Assembly: GCF_000337795.1 (NCBI RefSeq)
Contig: NZ_AOLP01000012.1
Span: 124,001 to 188,000, forward strand
Source: Haloferax denitrificans ATCC 35960
Lineage (GTDB): Archaea > Halobacteriota > Halobacteria > Halobacteriales > Haloferacaceae
Length of the DNA: 64,000 nucleotides
Reading direction: 5' to 3'
Position numbers and translations under genes: made by a program. Of this stretch, positions 42,045 through 48,531 are shown one piece after another. The notes beneath the pieces were generated by a model that was not told where the DNA came from, made no database searches, and saw only the letters and a list, made by a program, of their open reading frames with translations. Within the stretch, counting starts at the first letter, position 1, and the number at the start of each line of letters is the position of its first letter.

Positions 42045-42233
42045 TTACGCGCCCTGGCCGCCCTTCTTGCGCGTGATGTAGCCGGCGATGCGGTTGCGGA
42101 CGCCCTTCGACTCGACCGTGGTCAGTTCCTCGACGCTGTCCTTGTTCGTCTCGAAGTCCGTGTTGAACGCCTGCGGGTATCGCTCCAGCAGGATGTTACC
42201 AAGCTGCTTGACGTACTTGGGCTTGATTGCCAT
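42045..42233 (-). CDS. rps17e: 30S ribosomal protein S17e
   Basis: A 62-residue small-subunit ribosomal protein. MAIKPKYVKQLGNILLERYP then FNTDFETNKDSVEELT is the full S17e pattern, and the Lys/Gly tail (GYITRKKGGQGA) contacts rRNA. This archaeal/eukaryotic protein is absent from bacteria. It is the last gene of the cofD operon, 24 bases after DUF447, so a housekeeping translation gene is coupled to a cofactor cluster. Confidence 0.97.
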   Translation of the reverse strand: MAIKPKYVKQLGNILLERYPQAFNTDFETNKDSVEELTTVESKGVRNRIAGYITRKKGGQGA

Positions 42234-42257
42234 GTCGGAAGATTCCCCGGACGAACA

Positions 42258-42932
42258 CTAAAACGATTCGTTCCGTCTCGCGGCCGCCCGCTCGCGCCAG
42301 CCCGCCAACTCGTCGATTCGCGCGAACGCCTCGCGCTCTCTTTTCCCGCCGCATTTCTCGACCGTCTCGGCGAAGTAGTCGAGCCGGTCAAGCAGGTCGC
42401 CGGTGTCGAACACCGGCACGTCGAGGCGCGAGGCCGCCACCGTCGCGTCGACGACCGCGCCGAAGCCGCGGTTGATGGTGAACGGCCGGGTCCGCTCGAC
42501 CGCGGCGTCGACGGGTCGGAGTTCCCACGTCTCCCACTCGGTCCCGCCGTCCTCGCCGGACTCAACCGGCGCCGCCTCGACTTCGGCCCACGCGTCGGCC
42601 GAGTCGAGGACCGGCAACTCCCGCTCGTAGATGGTCATCGCGGCCTCGACGAACGCCCGCGGGTCGGAGACGAACTGGACGACGCCGCCGCCCTGCCGGT
42701 GGAAGTTCCGACGGGTCCGGGTGTTGCCCCACGTCGTCGCGGTCGCCAGCGGTGGCGACCCGGAGGACACGCCGGCGGGAGCGTCGCGGGTCTCCGGCGC
42801 GTGGACGCCGAGCGCCGCGAAGTTCCACCGGTCGTTCGGCCCGAGCGTGGCGACGACCGTCTCGGTGACGCCGCGGAGTTCGACGGGCCAGTCAACCGCG
42901 CTGTCGGGGCCGGATTCGCGCTCGTCGCTCAC
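42258..42932 (-). CDS. DUF447 family protein
   Basis: A 224-residue protein. WPVELRGVTETVVATLGPNDRWNFAALGV and TTWGNTRTRRNFHRQGGGVVQFVSDPRAFVEAAM (each split in the real chain) match the DUF447 fold, a split-barrel flavin-reductase-like domain. TINRGFGAVVDATVAASRLDV starts the C-terminal half. Biochemical function is unknown to me; the fold suggests FMN or F420 binding. The start overlaps the CitG-like stop by four bases (ATGA). The family is archaeal and also seen with methanopterin-type C1 genes in methylotrophs. Confidence 0.85.
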   Translation of the reverse strand: MSDERESGPDSAVDWPVELRGVTETVVATLGPNDRWNFAALGVHAPETRDAPAGVSSGSPPLATATTWGNTRTRRNFHRQGGGVVQFVSDPRAFVEAAMTIYERELPVLDSADAWAEVEAAPVESGEDGGTEWETWELRPVDAAVERTRPFTINRGFGAVVDATVAASRLDVPVFDTGDLLDRLDYFAETVEKCGGKREREAFARIDELAGWRERAAARRNESF

Positions 42933-43789
42933 AGCGGGACCCCCCGCTCCAGCGCGACGAACGTCGCCGCGCAGGCGATGTCGGCGGTCGTCCCGGGGTT
43001 GATTCCCTCGGCGACGAACGCCTCGGCCAGTTCCTCGGCCTCACTGAGGTCCGAAACGTCGGCCGCGCGGGCCATCACGTCGCGGGCGACGGCCTCGCCG
43101 TGATTCGTCGCCACGAGCGTATCGGGTTCCTCCGCGAGCAGGTCCAGAAACGCGCGAGCGACGCGGTCGGTGACGGGGCCGTCGTCGGCGAGGATGGTCT
43201 CGGCCGCGCGGAAGGTCCGGGCGAACCCGCCGGTCCACTCGCGGGCGTTGGCGTCGCGGTCGGCGCTCAGGTCCATCACGTCGGAGAGCGTGACTCCGCG
43301 GTCTCGGAGCGCGTCGGCCGCGTCGCCGCCGCGCCGAACGTCGAGGTCCGGGGCGTCCTCGGGCACGTCGCCGACGGCCACGTCGACGTGTTCGAACGCG
43401 CGGTAGAACCCGACCGCGTCGGCGACGGTGGTCGATTCGACCACGTCGGTCGCGCCCGCGGGAGTGAGGTCGCGGTCGTCGTCCGCGGCGGCCCGGACGA
43501 GCGGCACGAGAAGCAGGAGACAGCCGAACTGCGTGTTTCCGCCGCCCTGTCGGCTCATCCCGGCGACCGCCTCCTCGAACGCCTCGCCGACCGGCGCGCC
43601 TGACTCGGCCAGTTCGAGACCGGCCGCGGAGCCGACAGCGCCGGTCAGGAAGTGTTCGAAGTGCAGGTCCGAGAGGTCGCGGCGGCGGTCGACGTTCCCC
43701 GGCTTGGGCGTGCCCGCGACTTCGAGCAAGAGCGCGAGTTCGGCGTGGCGCGCGGGGCCGAACCCGCGGTCGGAGACGGGCGCGACCAT
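42929..43789 (-). CDS. CitG-like triphosphoribosyl-dephospho-CoA synthase family protein
   Basis: A 286-residue protein. ALLLEVAGTPKPGNVDRRRDLSDLHFEHFL (split) holds the family's TPKPGxVD motif and a following conserved Phe, and GGGNTQFGCLLLLVPL is the second signature. In bacteria CitG makes the 2'-(5''-triphosphoribosyl)-3'-dephospho-CoA precursor of the citrate lyase prosthetic group. Citrate lyase is not evident here, so the archaeal protein probably has another nucleotide substrate. Overlaps the Dus-like gene by one base (TGATG). Confidence 0.87.
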   Translation of the reverse strand: MVAPVSDRGFGPARHAELALLLEVAGTPKPGNVDRRRDLSDLHFEHFLTGAVGSAAGLELAESGAPVGEAFEEAVAGMSRQGGGNTQFGCLLLLVPLVRAAADDDRDLTPAGATDVVESTTVADAVGFYRAFEHVDVAVGDVPEDAPDLDVRRGGDAADALRDRGVTLSDVMDLSADRDANAREWTGGFARTFRAAETILADDGPVTDRVARAFLDLLAEEPDTLVATNHGEAVARDVMARAADVSDLSEAEELAEAFVAEGINPGTTADIACAATFVALERGVPL

Positions 43790-44580
43790 CAGGCGGACAC
43801 CCCGCTCTCGTCGCCCGACTCGGCGGCGTCTTCGCGCCCGGCGAACCAGTCGTCCACGGCGGTTCGGACCCGACGGAGGACCGTCTGATTGTCACTCGGC
43901 CGCCCGACGCTCACGGCGTCGGCCCCGTAGTCGAGGTACTCGGTCGCCGTCTCGCGGTCGCGGACGCCGTTGTTGGCGACGAGAAAGAGGTCGGGCGCGG
44001 CGGCGGCCACGTCGGCAATCACGGCCTCGGAGTCCATCGCGTCGACGTGGAGCCAGTCGGCCCCCGCGTCGGCGAGCGTGACCGCGAGGCTCGGGAGGGC
44101 AACGCCGTCGATTTCGGCGCGGACTTTCGCGCCGACCGGCGCGTCCGACTCGGCGGCCGCGGCGACGTACGCGGCCAGCCGGTCGGAATCGCGCAGGAGC
44201 GTCTCGCCACAGCCGACGGCGCAGAGTTCGTCCTGTCGGCAGTGGGCGTTTATCTCCACGCCAGCGCCGCGGTCGGCGCAGACGGCGGCGACCTCTCGAA
44301 TCGGGTCGGCCGCGGTCGCTCTGACGTTGACGGCGACGAAGCGGTCTTCGCCGTCGAATCCGGCGAGGGCGTCGAGTTGGTCGGAAACGAAGGCGACCGG
44401 GTCGTCGGCGAGGAACTCCGAGCGCCCGCGGGCGACGAGGTCGCTGGCCGCCGCCTGCGAGGGCTCGTCGAGGGCGACGCCGCCGAGGAACGCCGCGCCG
44501 ACGTGGGGGGCCGCGCCCTCGGCCCACGCGGCGTCCGACTCGCCGCTGAGGCTCGAAACGGCGACTCGCGGTTCGAACAT
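43789..44580 (-). CDS. tRNA-dihydrouridine synthase-like flavoprotein (archaeal branch)
   Basis: A 263-residue TIM-barrel protein. EINAHCRQDELCAVGCGETLL corresponds to the N-x-GCP...GGALL region of Dus enzymes but with His-Cys in place of the usual Gly-Cys-Pro. VGAKVRAEIDG, DWLHVDAMDS and LVANNGVRDRETATEYLDYGADAVSVGRPS make up the phosphate/FMN-binding half. It is shorter than true Dus proteins and lacks the C-terminal helical tRNA-binding domain, so a small-molecule role is possible. Overlaps both neighbours by one base. Confidence 0.8.
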   Translation of the reverse strand: MFEPRVAVSSLSGESDAAWAEGAAPHVGAAFLGGVALDEPSQAAASDLVARGRSEFLADDPVAFVSDQLDALAGFDGEDRFVAVNVRATAADPIREVAAVCADRGAGVEINAHCRQDELCAVGCGETLLRDSDRLAAYVAAAAESDAPVGAKVRAEIDGVALPSLAVTLADAGADWLHVDAMDSEAVIADVAAAAPDLFLVANNGVRDRETATEYLDYGADAVSVGRPSDNQTVLRRVRTAVDDWFAGREDAAESGDESGVSA

Positions 44581-45572
44581 CACGACACCTCGCTGAGCGC
44601 CTCGGAAACGGCGCGAGCGACGCGTTCGGCGTCGTCGGGACCGTCGATTCGCGTGTCGGTTCTGACGACCGGCCGGTCGAGGTCGGTGCCGTCGGCCGCG
44701 TCGAGGACGAACGCGTCGGCGAAGGGGTAGGCCTCGGCGACGCCCGCGGTCGAGGGGTCGTAGCCGACGCCTTCCATGAGGTCGGCGGCCGGCCCGGAGA
44801 ACGCGGTGTCCTCCACGAACGGCGAGACGGCGACGACCGGCGTGTCCGCGAGGGCGTCCGCGAAGCCGTCGATGGCGAGCATCGGCCCGATGCTCGTGAC
44901 GGGGTTCGAGGGGCCGACGACGACGGGGTCCGCGAGGGCGTCGGCGACTTCGTCGGTGACTGCGGCGTCGTCGGCCCCGCGGAACTCCACGTCGCGGACG
45001 GCGGGGTCGGCGCGGCGGTGGACCCAGTACTCCTGGAAGTGCATCGTCCCTTCGTCGGTGTGAATCAGCGTCGCCACGGGGTCGTCGCTCATCGGGAGGA
45101 GTGACACGTCGAGGTCGAAGGCGTCGGCGAGCGTCCGGGTGACCTCGGTGAGCGAGTTCCCCTCGTCGAGAAGCGAGGTGCGGGTGATGTGGACCGCGCG
45201 GTCGCGGTCGCCGATTTCCATGAACTCCGCGACGCCGGAGAAGCGCCGCCAGCGGGCGATGTCGCGGCCGGCGGTCTGGGCCGACTCGGGGAGGTAGCGC
45301 GGGCCGGATTCGAGGCCGGCCGCGTCGGCGAGGCGGTGGAGTTCGTCGTCGGTCGCGGTGGTGTCGTCGGCGATTCCCCACCAGCGGTCGGTGTCGAGGA
45401 CGCCGCCGCCGGCGAAGAGGACGGTGTCCACGTCGGGACAGACGAGGTGGCCGCCGAGTTCCACGTCGTCGCCGGTGTTGGCGACGACGGTCGTCTCGTC
45501 GGGGTCGAACACCCCGGCGGCCCCGTCAAGGAGTTTGGGGGTGCCCGTACCCCCGGCGAGGAAGGTAACCAT
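44580..45572 (-). CDS. cofD: 2-phospho-L-lactate transferase (coenzyme F420 biosynthesis)
   Basis: A 330-residue CofD that joins a lactyl-phosphate (or phosphoenolpyruvate) diphospho-guanosine donor to Fo, forming F420-0. Seen: [17 protein letters not shown] (nucleotide-binding loop), [58 protein letters not shown] and [18 protein letters not shown], the main family blocks. F420 is present in haloarchaea. First gene of the overlapping cluster that continues with the Dus-like, CitG-like, DUF447 and S17e genes. Confidence 0.95.
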
Positions 45573-46065: not shown

Positions 46066-47238
46066 ATGACCGCCGTCAAGGACAGCGTCCACGACTACAT
46101 CTCCCTCGACCCCGTGGCCGCCGAACTGGTCGACACGCCCGCGTTCCAGCGGCTTCGACACATCAAACAGCTCTCGACGGTCCGGCTCGTCTACCCCTCC
46201 GCGAGCCACACGCGATTCGAACACAGCCTCGGCGTCTACCACCTCGCCTCCCGCGCCCTCTCGCACCTCGGCGTCGACGGCGACCGCGCCGCCCACGTCC
46301 GCGCCGCCGCGCTCCTCCACGACATCGGCCACGGCCCCTACGGCCACCAGACCGAAGAGCTCATCCGCCGGCGCACCGGCCGCGACCACGACGAGATTCA
46401 CCACCTGCTCGACGGGACCGAAGTCGGCGCGGTCCTGACCGACCACGGCCTCGACCCGGACCGCGTCGCCGACATGGTCGACGGTGCGGGGGGCCTCGGG
46501 CAGTTAGTCTCGGGTGAGTTGGACGTTGACCGGATGGATTACCTCGTTCGCGACGCCCACCACACCGGCGTCCCCTACGGAACCATCGACCACGGCCGCC
46601 TCGTCCGCGAACTCCGGTATCGGGACGGCGAACTCGTGTTGGCTGAGGGGAACGTCCAGACCGCCGAATCACTGCTTCTCGCGCGGGCGCTGATGAACGC
46701 GACCGTCTACCGCCACCACGTCTCCCGCATCGCGGGCGCGATGCTCGAACGCGCCTCCGAGCGCCTCGTCGACGACGGCGTGCCAATCGAGGAGTTCGTC
46801 CGGATGGCCGACCACGACCTGCTCGTCGCCCTCGGCGAGCGCGTGCCCGACCTCGGCCGTCGCATCGAGCGCCGCGACCTGTACAAGCGGGCCGTCTGGG
46901 CCCCCATCGACGCCGTGCCGACCGACGTGGTCGAACTCGACTACGAGGCGACGCGGGCGGCCGAGCGGGAGGTCGCCGACGCCGCCGACGTGTCGCCCGA
47001 GTCGGTCATCGTGGACGCGCCGTCGCGGCCGCGAATCAAGGAGTCCCGGTCGCGCGTCGTCGTCAACGGCGTCGTCCGACGGCTCGAAGACGCCTCGGAA
47101 CTCGTGGGCGCGCTCCGGTCGACTGAGCGGACGCAGTGGCGACTCGGCGTCTACGCGCCCGAGGCGGTCCGCGACGAGGTGGCCGCGGCCGCCGTGGACG
47201 TGCTCGGGCTTCCCGTGCGCGTGACGACGCCGGTCTGA
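46066..47238 (+). CDS. HD-domain phosphohydrolase (copy 1)
   Basis: A 390-residue member of the SAMHD1/dGTPase-like HD superfamily. KDSVHDYISLDPVAAELVDTPAFQRLRHIKQL (split), HTRFEHSLGVYHLASRAL with the first His, ALLHDIGHGPYGH with the HD dyad, and SGELDVDRMDYLVRDAHHTGV with the final Asp form the metal site. Likely hydrolyses a (deoxy)nucleotide phosphate. The start is set at ATG 46066. A paralogue follows directly on the same strand. Confidence 0.92.
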   Translation: MTAVKDSVHDYISLDPVAAELVDTPAFQRLRHIKQLSTVRLVYPSASHTRFEHSLGVYHLASRALSHLGVDGDRAAHVRAAALLHDIGHGPYGHQTEELIRRRTGRDHDEIHHLLDGTEVGAVLTDHGLDPDRVADMVDGAGGLGQLVSGELDVDRMDYLVRDAHHTGVPYGTIDHGRLVRELRYRDGELVLAEGNVQTAESLLLARALMNATVYRHHVSRIAGAMLERASERLVDDGVPIEEFVRMADHDLLVALGERVPDLGRRIERRDLYKRAVWAPIDAVPTDVVELDYEATRAAEREVADAADVSPESVIVDAPSRPRIKESRSRVVVNGVVRRLEDASELVGALRSTERTQWRLGVYAPEAVRDEVAAAAVDVLGLPVRVTTPV

Positions 47239-47307
47239 ATCGCGTGGAGAGTCGGCGAGACACGGCCGTCCGACCCTTTTTCACCGATGGCGGTCGACTC
47301 ACCCACC

Positions 47308-48531
47308 ATGACGACCATCAAGGACAGCGTCCACGACCACATCGAGGTCGAGGGCGCGGCCGAAGCCCTCCTCGATACGCCGGAGATGCAGCGACTCCGG
47401 CACATCAAGCAGTTGGGAACCGTCCAGCTGGTCTACCCCTCCGCGAACCACACGCGGTTCGAACACAGCCTCGGCGTCTACCACCTCGCCTCCCGCGCTC
47501 TCTCCCACCTCGGCATCGAGGGTGACGCCGCCGCCCACGTCGAGGCCGCGGCGCTCCTCCACGACGTGGGCCACGGTCCCTACAGCCACAACATCGAGGA
47601 CGTTACCCACCGCCACACCGGCAAGTACCACGACGACGTGGAGGGACTCGTCGCCCGCGGAACCGTCGGCGAGACGCTGGAGGCCGAGGGGTTAGACCCC
47701 GAGCGCGTGGCCGCCTTGGTCGAGGGCGACGGCGAGTTCGGCCAACTCGTCTCCGGGGAGTTGGACGTCGACCGGATGGACTACCTCGTCCGCGACGCCC
47801 ACCACACCGGCGTCCCCTACGGAACCATCGACCACGAGCGCCTGATTCGGGAACTGACGTTCGTCGACGGCGAGTTGGTCCTCGCGGAGGGGAACGTCCA
47901 GACGGCCGAGTCCCTGCTTCTCGCCCGCGCGCTCATGAACCCGACCGTCTACCAGCACCACGTCGCGCGCATCTCGAAGGCGATGCTCCGGCGCGCGTCG
48001 GAGCGACTGCTCGACGAGCCCGACATCGACGCCGAGGAGCTCCGCCGGATGGACGACCCCGACCTGCTCGTCGCGCTCCGTCTCACCGACTCGACGAAGG
48101 GGTTCGCCGAGCGACTGGCCACCCGCGACCTCTACAAGCGGGCCGTCTGGGCGGAGTTGCCGAACGTCCCCGACTCGATTATCGACGCCGAACACGACGC
48201 GCTCGCGGCGTTCGAGCGGGACATCGCCGACGCCGCCGACGTGTCGCCCGAGTCGGTCATCCTCGACGTGCCCTCGCGCCCGTCGATGACCGAGTCGTCG
48301 TCGCGGGTGATGGTCAACGGCGAGATTCGGCAGTTGGAGCGGGAGTCGCCGCTCGTGCAGGCGCTCCGGACCGCACAGGAACAGCAGTGGCGACTCGGCG
48401 TCTACGCCCCGCGCGAGGAGACAGAGCGCGTCGGCCGCGCGGCCGCCGACGTGCTCGGCCTCGACGTCGATGGCGCGCTCGTCGCCGAGGTCAGAAGCGG
48501 CCTCAACGCGACGCTCGACGAGTTCGAGTAG
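47308..48531 (+). CDS. HD-domain phosphohydrolase (copy 2)
   Basis: A 407-residue paralogue of the previous gene with the same motif order: KDSVHDHIEV, HTRFEHSLGVYHLASRALSHLG, ALLHDVGHGPYSH and SGELDVDRMDYLVRDAHHTGVP. Proteins are alike throughout, including the C-terminal half (DAADVSPESVI), and stretches of DNA are virtually identical. The start is ATG 47308 (MTTIKDSVHD), preceded by a T-rich element (CCCTTTTTCACC) at about -30. ATG 47287 would add seven residues. Confidence 0.92.
   Translation: MTTIKDSVHDHIEVEGAAEALLDTPEMQRLRHIKQLGTVQLVYPSANHTRFEHSLGVYHLASRALSHLGIEGDAAAHVEAAALLHDVGHGPYSHNIEDVTHRHTGKYHDDVEGLVARGTVGETLEAEGLDPERVAALVEGDGEFGQLVSGELDVDRMDYLVRDAHHTGVPYGTIDHERLIRELTFVDGELVLAEGNVQTAESLLLARALMNPTVYQHHVARISKAMLRRASERLLDEPDIDAEELRRMDDPDLLVALRLTDSTKGFAERLATRDLYKRAVWAELPNVPDSIIDAEHDALAAFERDIADAADVSPESVILDVPSRPSMTESSSRVMVNGEIRQLERESPLVQALRTAQEQQWRLGVYAPREETERVGRAAADVLGLDVDGALVAEVRSGLNATLDEFE

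Follow-up and report, generated by a model that had tools for sequence, protein, structure and literature searches.

We analyzed a 64,000-nucleotide stretch of the Haloferax denitrificans ATCC 35960 genome (contig NZ_AOLP01000012.1, positions 124,001 to 188,000; hereafter the window), in which five genes on the minus strand form an overlapping operon. An earlier note on this DNA had described them as a candidate undescribed cofactor pathway; the operon was real, and profile searches agreed with the families named there. The first gene, cofD (44580..45572), encodes 2-phospho-L-lactate transferase of coenzyme F420 biosynthesis (TIGR01819, 385 bits; cut-off, 257). It is followed by the genes for a Dus-like protein (43789..44580; PF01207, 39.7 bits), a flavin mononucleotide (FMN)-type TIM barrel of the MJ0144 family; a CitG-like protein (42929..43789; PF01874); and a DUF447 protein (42258..42932, GTG start; PF04289, DUF447_N, and PF20766, DUF447_C). 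The last gene, rps17e (42045..42233), encodes ribosomal protein S17e (Ribosomal_S17e; NF002242, 95.8 bits). The overlaps are 1 base (cofD/Dus-like), 1 base (Dus-like/CitG-like), and 4 bases (CitG-like/DUF447), with a gap of 24 bases between DUF447 and rps17e. We propose that the CitG-like protein is an ATP-dependent (triphospho)ribosyltransferase for a methanopterin-type carrier and that DUF447, an FMN-binding split-barrel protein, is a reductase of the same pathway.

The order cofD-dus-citG-DUF447 was kept in 18 of 20 haloarchaeal loci, each from a different genus, and citG adjoined DUF447 in all 20. The arrangement is thus not due to chance. The rps17e gene, found close downstream in about 15 of the 20 loci and elsewhere in the others, is the loosest member and an operon passenger. 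Outside haloarchaea, the profile scan of contigs gave only Halobacteriota-like loci, so that other archaeal phyla were covered through control genomes alone. The earlier note had held that random neighbors in other archaea would speak against its proposal; this condition did not refute it, since citG adjoined DUF447 in 59 of the 75 named loci outside haloarchaea whose surroundings were visible. The two genes were also neighbors in 18 of the 20 other Halobacteriota families that were sampled. The stable core outside haloarchaea is citG-DUF447. A 987-kb record of Natrinema thermotolerans, filed as a plasmid, carries the whole operon, including the ribosomal gene, with an iron transporter gene and a cupin gene between the Dus-like gene and citG.

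The operon could also be a transcriptional convenience around the ribosomal protein gene, with no common function and with the Dus-like protein acting on RNA. The presence of rps17e and a Dus-like gene within the operon, together with a Dus-like fold closest to tRNA-dihydrouridine synthases, would fit this. However, throughout the phylum citG and DUF447 stay side by side where rps17e is not with them, their loss tracks the unlinked mptG and mer genes, and the Dus-like protein has no tRNA-binding domain; we regard this explanation as highly improbable.

Proteins encoded by the operon

The earlier note was right that the Dus-like protein has no tRNA-binding tail. The PF01207 match spanned profile positions 53-224 of 311, and the 263-residue model contained the barrel only, whereas a Dus enzyme combines a catalytic barrel with a C-terminal tRNA-binding domain. 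Its GCP motif had been called altered, which holds for the lost glycine and proline but not for the cysteine: of 12 aligned members, 11 have AHCRQ at this site and one has AHCKQ. Lys152 was invariant in the same alignment. The predicted model (predicted local distance difference test score, pLDDT, 92.5) was nearest to structures of tRNA-dihydrouridine synthases and of dihydropyrimidine dehydrogenase and dihydroorotate dehydrogenase. The best family match was TIGR00736, the MJ0144 family, at 121.9 bits under a cut-off of 218.7.

The CitG-like protein belongs to the PF01874 fold family (212.9 bits; cut-off, 27) and has a solved relative, 3h9p. It shares the KPG..D, NT.FG, and NPG..AD motifs with the triphosphoribosyl-dephospho-CoA synthases CitG and MdcB. 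Unlike them, it has a KPGNVDR signature and scored 14.6 and 19.1 bits against the CitG and MdcB equivalogs, whose cut-offs are 272.3 and 282.4. On these scores, the protein is not a citrate-lyase enzyme, a role that had already been doubted. The operon neighborhood, the region inspected, contained genes for neither citrate lyase nor malonate decarboxylase.

DUF447 is a member of an FMN-binding split-barrel family; that it is a flavin protein had been supposed. Structures have been solved for four relatives, three of which (2iml, 2nr4, and 2ptf) bind FMN, and the AlphaFold model of the window protein (pLDDT 87) matched all three. We found no literature that assigns a function to DUF447, to CitG with methanopterin, to MJ0144, or to methanogenesis marker protein 9.

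Gene losses in haloarchaea and linkage with mptG and mer

MptG is the synthase of β-ribofuranosylaminobenzene 5'-phosphate (β-RFAP), the committing step to methanopterin, which is the one-carbon carrier of methane-makers. The earlier note had stated that haloarchaea are not known to use methanopterin for methanogenesis; this needs correction in that they carry a methanopterin-type gene, mptG. In the window genome, this gene lies outside the window and remote from the operon (G000:C11:270444-271397; TIGR00144, 169.8 bits; cut-off, 113.5).

Among 294 haloarchaea, five had no DUF447: G018, two genomes of one genus (G001 and G007), and two of another (G342 and G414). CitG was absent from the same five genomes. 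MptG was present in all 22 DUF447-positive genomes and in none of the five negative ones (27 tested). Orthologs of Mer, the F420-dependent methylene-pterin reductase, were found (276-337 bits) in 14 of 14 MptG-positive and 0 of 5 negative genomes in a 19-genome set; G018 had a Mer paralog only (133 bits). The co-losses in G001/G007 and in G018 do not follow from linkage, because in their relatives the genes are not at one locus.

All 19 haloarchaea tested have CofD, the five without DUF447 among them. In these five, citG-DUF447 was cleanly excised and the Dus-like gene stayed directly behind cofD; rps17e was also retained there in G001 and G007. The Dus-like gene lies upstream of citG-DUF447 in many non-haloarchaeal loci, and the earlier note had grouped it with these two genes, but it segregates with CofD, and its membership in their module was rejected. 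The operon thus consists of two modules, cofD with the Dus-like gene (F420) and citG-like with DUF447 (methanopterin-type).

No MptG-negative genome has lost Mch, and two MptG-positive ones lack it, which disfavors Mch as the haloarchaeal user of a new carrier. A dedicated second dihydropteroate synthase was rejected, since both copies stay regardless of MptG. The two genomes without Mch (G343 and G411, family f31) have a single dihydropteroate synthase-like gene instead of two, together with MptG, CitG, DUF447, and Mer. In G003, G010, G018, G346, and G371, a distance of 1-4 kb separates the second such gene from that of a luciferase-like F420 oxidoreductase, a Mer paralog (for example, G018:C3:163136-166000).

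Split methionine synthase (MetE) was partly lost as well. Its pterin-binding subunit was gone from genus g13, and no MetE match was found in G018, which has lost both subunits. In G001 and G007, the catalytic subunit gene stands alone behind an A-type ATP synthase subunit gene (L339:1399-2496 and L338:1435-2532), and the pterin-binding subunit gene, usually beside it, is missing from that place. The lone catalytic subunit suggests another methyl donor in these cells.

Linkage was also observed. A mer-DUF447-mptG operon occurs in G344 and G401, both of which have no citG in the genome; in G344, it is flanked by npdG (NADPH:F420 reductase) and both split methionine synthase halves. A Halobellus limi plasmid is annotated with npdG, mer, DUF447, mptG, and genes for the MetE N- and C-subunits. 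Elsewhere, mer adjoins the F420 ligase gene cofE.

A modification or completion of F420, or of an F420 derivative, by CitG-like and DUF447 would be in keeping with the operon that they share with cofD in 18 of the 20 haloarchaeal genera; in some methanogen loci, too, dus-citG-DUF447 comes after cofD. One Halobacteriota genome has F420 ligase, cofD, Dus-like, citG, DUF447, and PF02441 flavoprotein genes in a single run (L096:6073-11338). However, all five genomes without CitG and DUF447 keep CofD; Sulfolobus acidocaldarius, a control, has MptG, CitG, and DUF447 but not CofD, Mch, or Mer; and bacterial clusters hold the two genes among those for tetrahydromethanopterin (H4MPT). F420 is therefore not the product of CitG-like and DUF447, and this role, which we consider very unlikely, was rejected. 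The link to F420 that had been suggested stands only as an indirect one: Mer is the link between the CitG-like/DUF447 module and F420.

A proposed methanopterin-type carrier

Independent support for a methanopterin-type module comes from known H4MPT clusters of bacteria. On megaplasmids of Phyllobacterium, Azoarcus, Cupriavidus, Rhizobium, and others, the CitG-like and DUF447 genes lie 3-7 kb apart, and mptG is within 13 kb of them where both were found. The plasmid clusters of Phyllobacterium (P. zundukense) and Azoarcus combine CitG-like, DUF447, and mptG with mch, mtdB, fae, and dihydroneopterin aldolase, bearing out the statement in the earlier note that these proteins accompany archaeal-type C1 genes. 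The Phyllobacterium CitG-like protein is 30% identical to that of the window, and both have the KPGNV and NPGT.AD motifs. Its gene is flanked by a RimK-type gene and fae; orf7 holds the equivalent position in methylotrophs, in the order mch-orf5-orf7-fae (PMC3615186).

Taken together, the co-loss with MptG and Mer and the linkage in bacterial H4MPT clusters make a pterin-like cofactor pathway the best reading, as the earlier note had suspected, although the pathway is not undescribed in kind but methanopterin-type. CitG-like and DUF447 probably help to build a methanopterin-type carrier, which haloarchaea would use for methionine via Mer and split MetE. We infer the existence of this cofactor in haloarchaea, its structure, and the reaction of each enzyme from gene content, co-loss, linkage, motifs, and the FMN fold.

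After β-RFAP, the steps of H4MPT biosynthesis include one in which the ribose is reductively opened to 1-deoxyribitol and one in which a ribosyl phosphate is attached through an alpha linkage. In the proposed scheme, MptG would make the beta-C-riboside from phosphoribosyl pyrophosphate (PRPP). DUF447 would use FMNH2 in a reductive step, most likely the opening of the ribofuranosyl ring to 1-deoxyribitol; it was given this step because an FMN reductase suits it. The CitG-like protein would take a 5-(tri)phosphoribosyl group from ATP and attach it to the ribitol, with inversion giving the alpha-glycosidic bond known in H4MPT; this assignment was made because a CitG-type enzyme moves triphosphoribosyl from ATP with inversion. 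The haloarchaeal carrier would take up a methylene group, Mer with F420H2 would reduce it to methyl, and split MetE would pass the methyl group to homocysteine, giving methionine. The position of F420 genes next to citG-DUF447 and mer would then make sense, because Mer would use F420H2. Folate would keep Mch and the purine branch.

Several points weigh against this reading. Haloarchaeal MptG missed the NF040726 equivalog (167-183 bits, 182.7 at the top, vs. 328), and Mer missed TIGR03555 (300-332 bits vs. 348.7), though it exceeded the NF002619 cut-off (435-448 bits vs. 276). The uncorrected Fisher values of 1e-5 for MptG-DUF447 and 9e-5 for Mer-MptG overstate independence, as there are only about three loss lineages, and in the Halobellus-type genus the lost genes may have been a single plasmid cassette. 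Split MetE followed MptG only in part: it was lost from g13 (one subunit) and G018 (both), whereas G414 keeps split MetE, and G342 both split and full-length MetE, without Mer. CitG is not strictly required, because mptG-DUF447-mer cassettes, namely those of G344, G401, and H. limi, occur with no citG beside them. That DUF447 opens the ring is a chemical guess. The nearest solved relative of MptG is the C-nucleoside synthase ForT, and other MptG products are possible by analogy with such relatives. No published report of methanopterin in haloarchaea was found, and tetrahydrofolate is present in some of them (PMC3261824).

These last observations would fit a different explanation, in which the product of haloarchaeal MptG, CitG-like, and DUF447 is a modified tetrahydrofolate, a C-nucleoside, or another arylriboside, and the substrate of Mer is methylene-tetrahydrofolate. 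Mer and Mch have been assigned to folate, with Mer as a probable folate user and methanopterin-specific enzymes absent from haloarchaea (PMC8305020); in addition, Mch and both dihydropteroate synthase copies do not follow MptG. However, a folate-using Mer should not vanish exactly where MptG, CitG, and DUF447 vanish, nor should it share an operon with DUF447 and mptG, and haloarchaeal MptG is as close to its family as a bacterial MptG from within an H4MPT cluster. We therefore consider the folate or C-nucleoside explanation unlikely. The co-loss and operon evidence argues against the annotation in PMC8305020 but cannot replace chemistry.

The methanopterin-type reading points to a cofactor in a genetically tractable archaeon for which no report was found, in contradiction to that standing annotation, and gives two unassigned families, CitG-like and DUF447, a testable place in methanopterin biosynthesis. 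A broader and tentative scenario, which we hold to be possible rather than probable, is that haloarchaea run two one-carbon carriers in parallel. Beside tetrahydrofolate there would be an unreported methanopterin-like pterin, a legacy of methanogenic ancestors that was retained because it supplies methyl groups to methionine in an F420-dependent way. CitG-like and DUF447 would then be the missing ATP-dependent ribosyltransferase and FMN-dependent deoxyribitol-forming reductase in all methanopterin makers, and some Halobellus would use a shortened, ribosyl-free version.

Just past the operon, on the opposite strand, the window carries tandem genes for HD-domain proteins (46066-47238 and 47287-48531; HD and HD_assoc_2).

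Comparison with known systems

Haloarchaeal MptG, of predicted activity, resembles methanogen β-RFAP synthase in exceeding the TIGR00144 cut-off, in keeping the GLGSGTQ, RGG.SG.G, and GGF..D.GH motifs, and in nesting inside the methanogen clade. It differs in its long branch and in reaching about half of the NF040726 score needed. MptG of the Phyllobacterium H4MPT cluster also misses this equivalog (176.7 vs. 328), and on the two MptG models the bacterial protein scored 177 and 146 bits and the haloarchaeal proteins 151-183. The divergence of haloarchaeal MptG is by itself no ground to deny its function, because the bacterial protein scores in the same range.

Many Halobacteriota methanogens have the order Dus-like, citG, DUF447, sometimes with cofD upstream, as in haloarchaea. 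Unlike in haloarchaea, the methanogen protein joins the Dus-like barrel to the methanogenesis marker 9 domain (TIGR03277), as seen in the two methanogen-type loci scanned (L084:4947-6179 and L089:4948-6186), where the fused gene sits directly upstream of citG-DUF447. This position gives the unassigned marker protein 9 a genomic context. The haloarchaeal Dus-like protein is thus the counterpart of the N-terminal barrel half of marker protein 9 and does not have the marker domain at its C terminus.

The H4MPT clusters of bacterial methylotrophs, which are archaeal-like C1 islands, likewise bring mptG, CitG-like, and DUF447 together, with CitG-like in the orf7 position. In contrast, haloarchaea have no linked fae, mtdB, or fhc, their citG-DUF447 pair lies in an F420 operon, and it is partnered with Mer and split MetE, not with formaldehyde oxidation.

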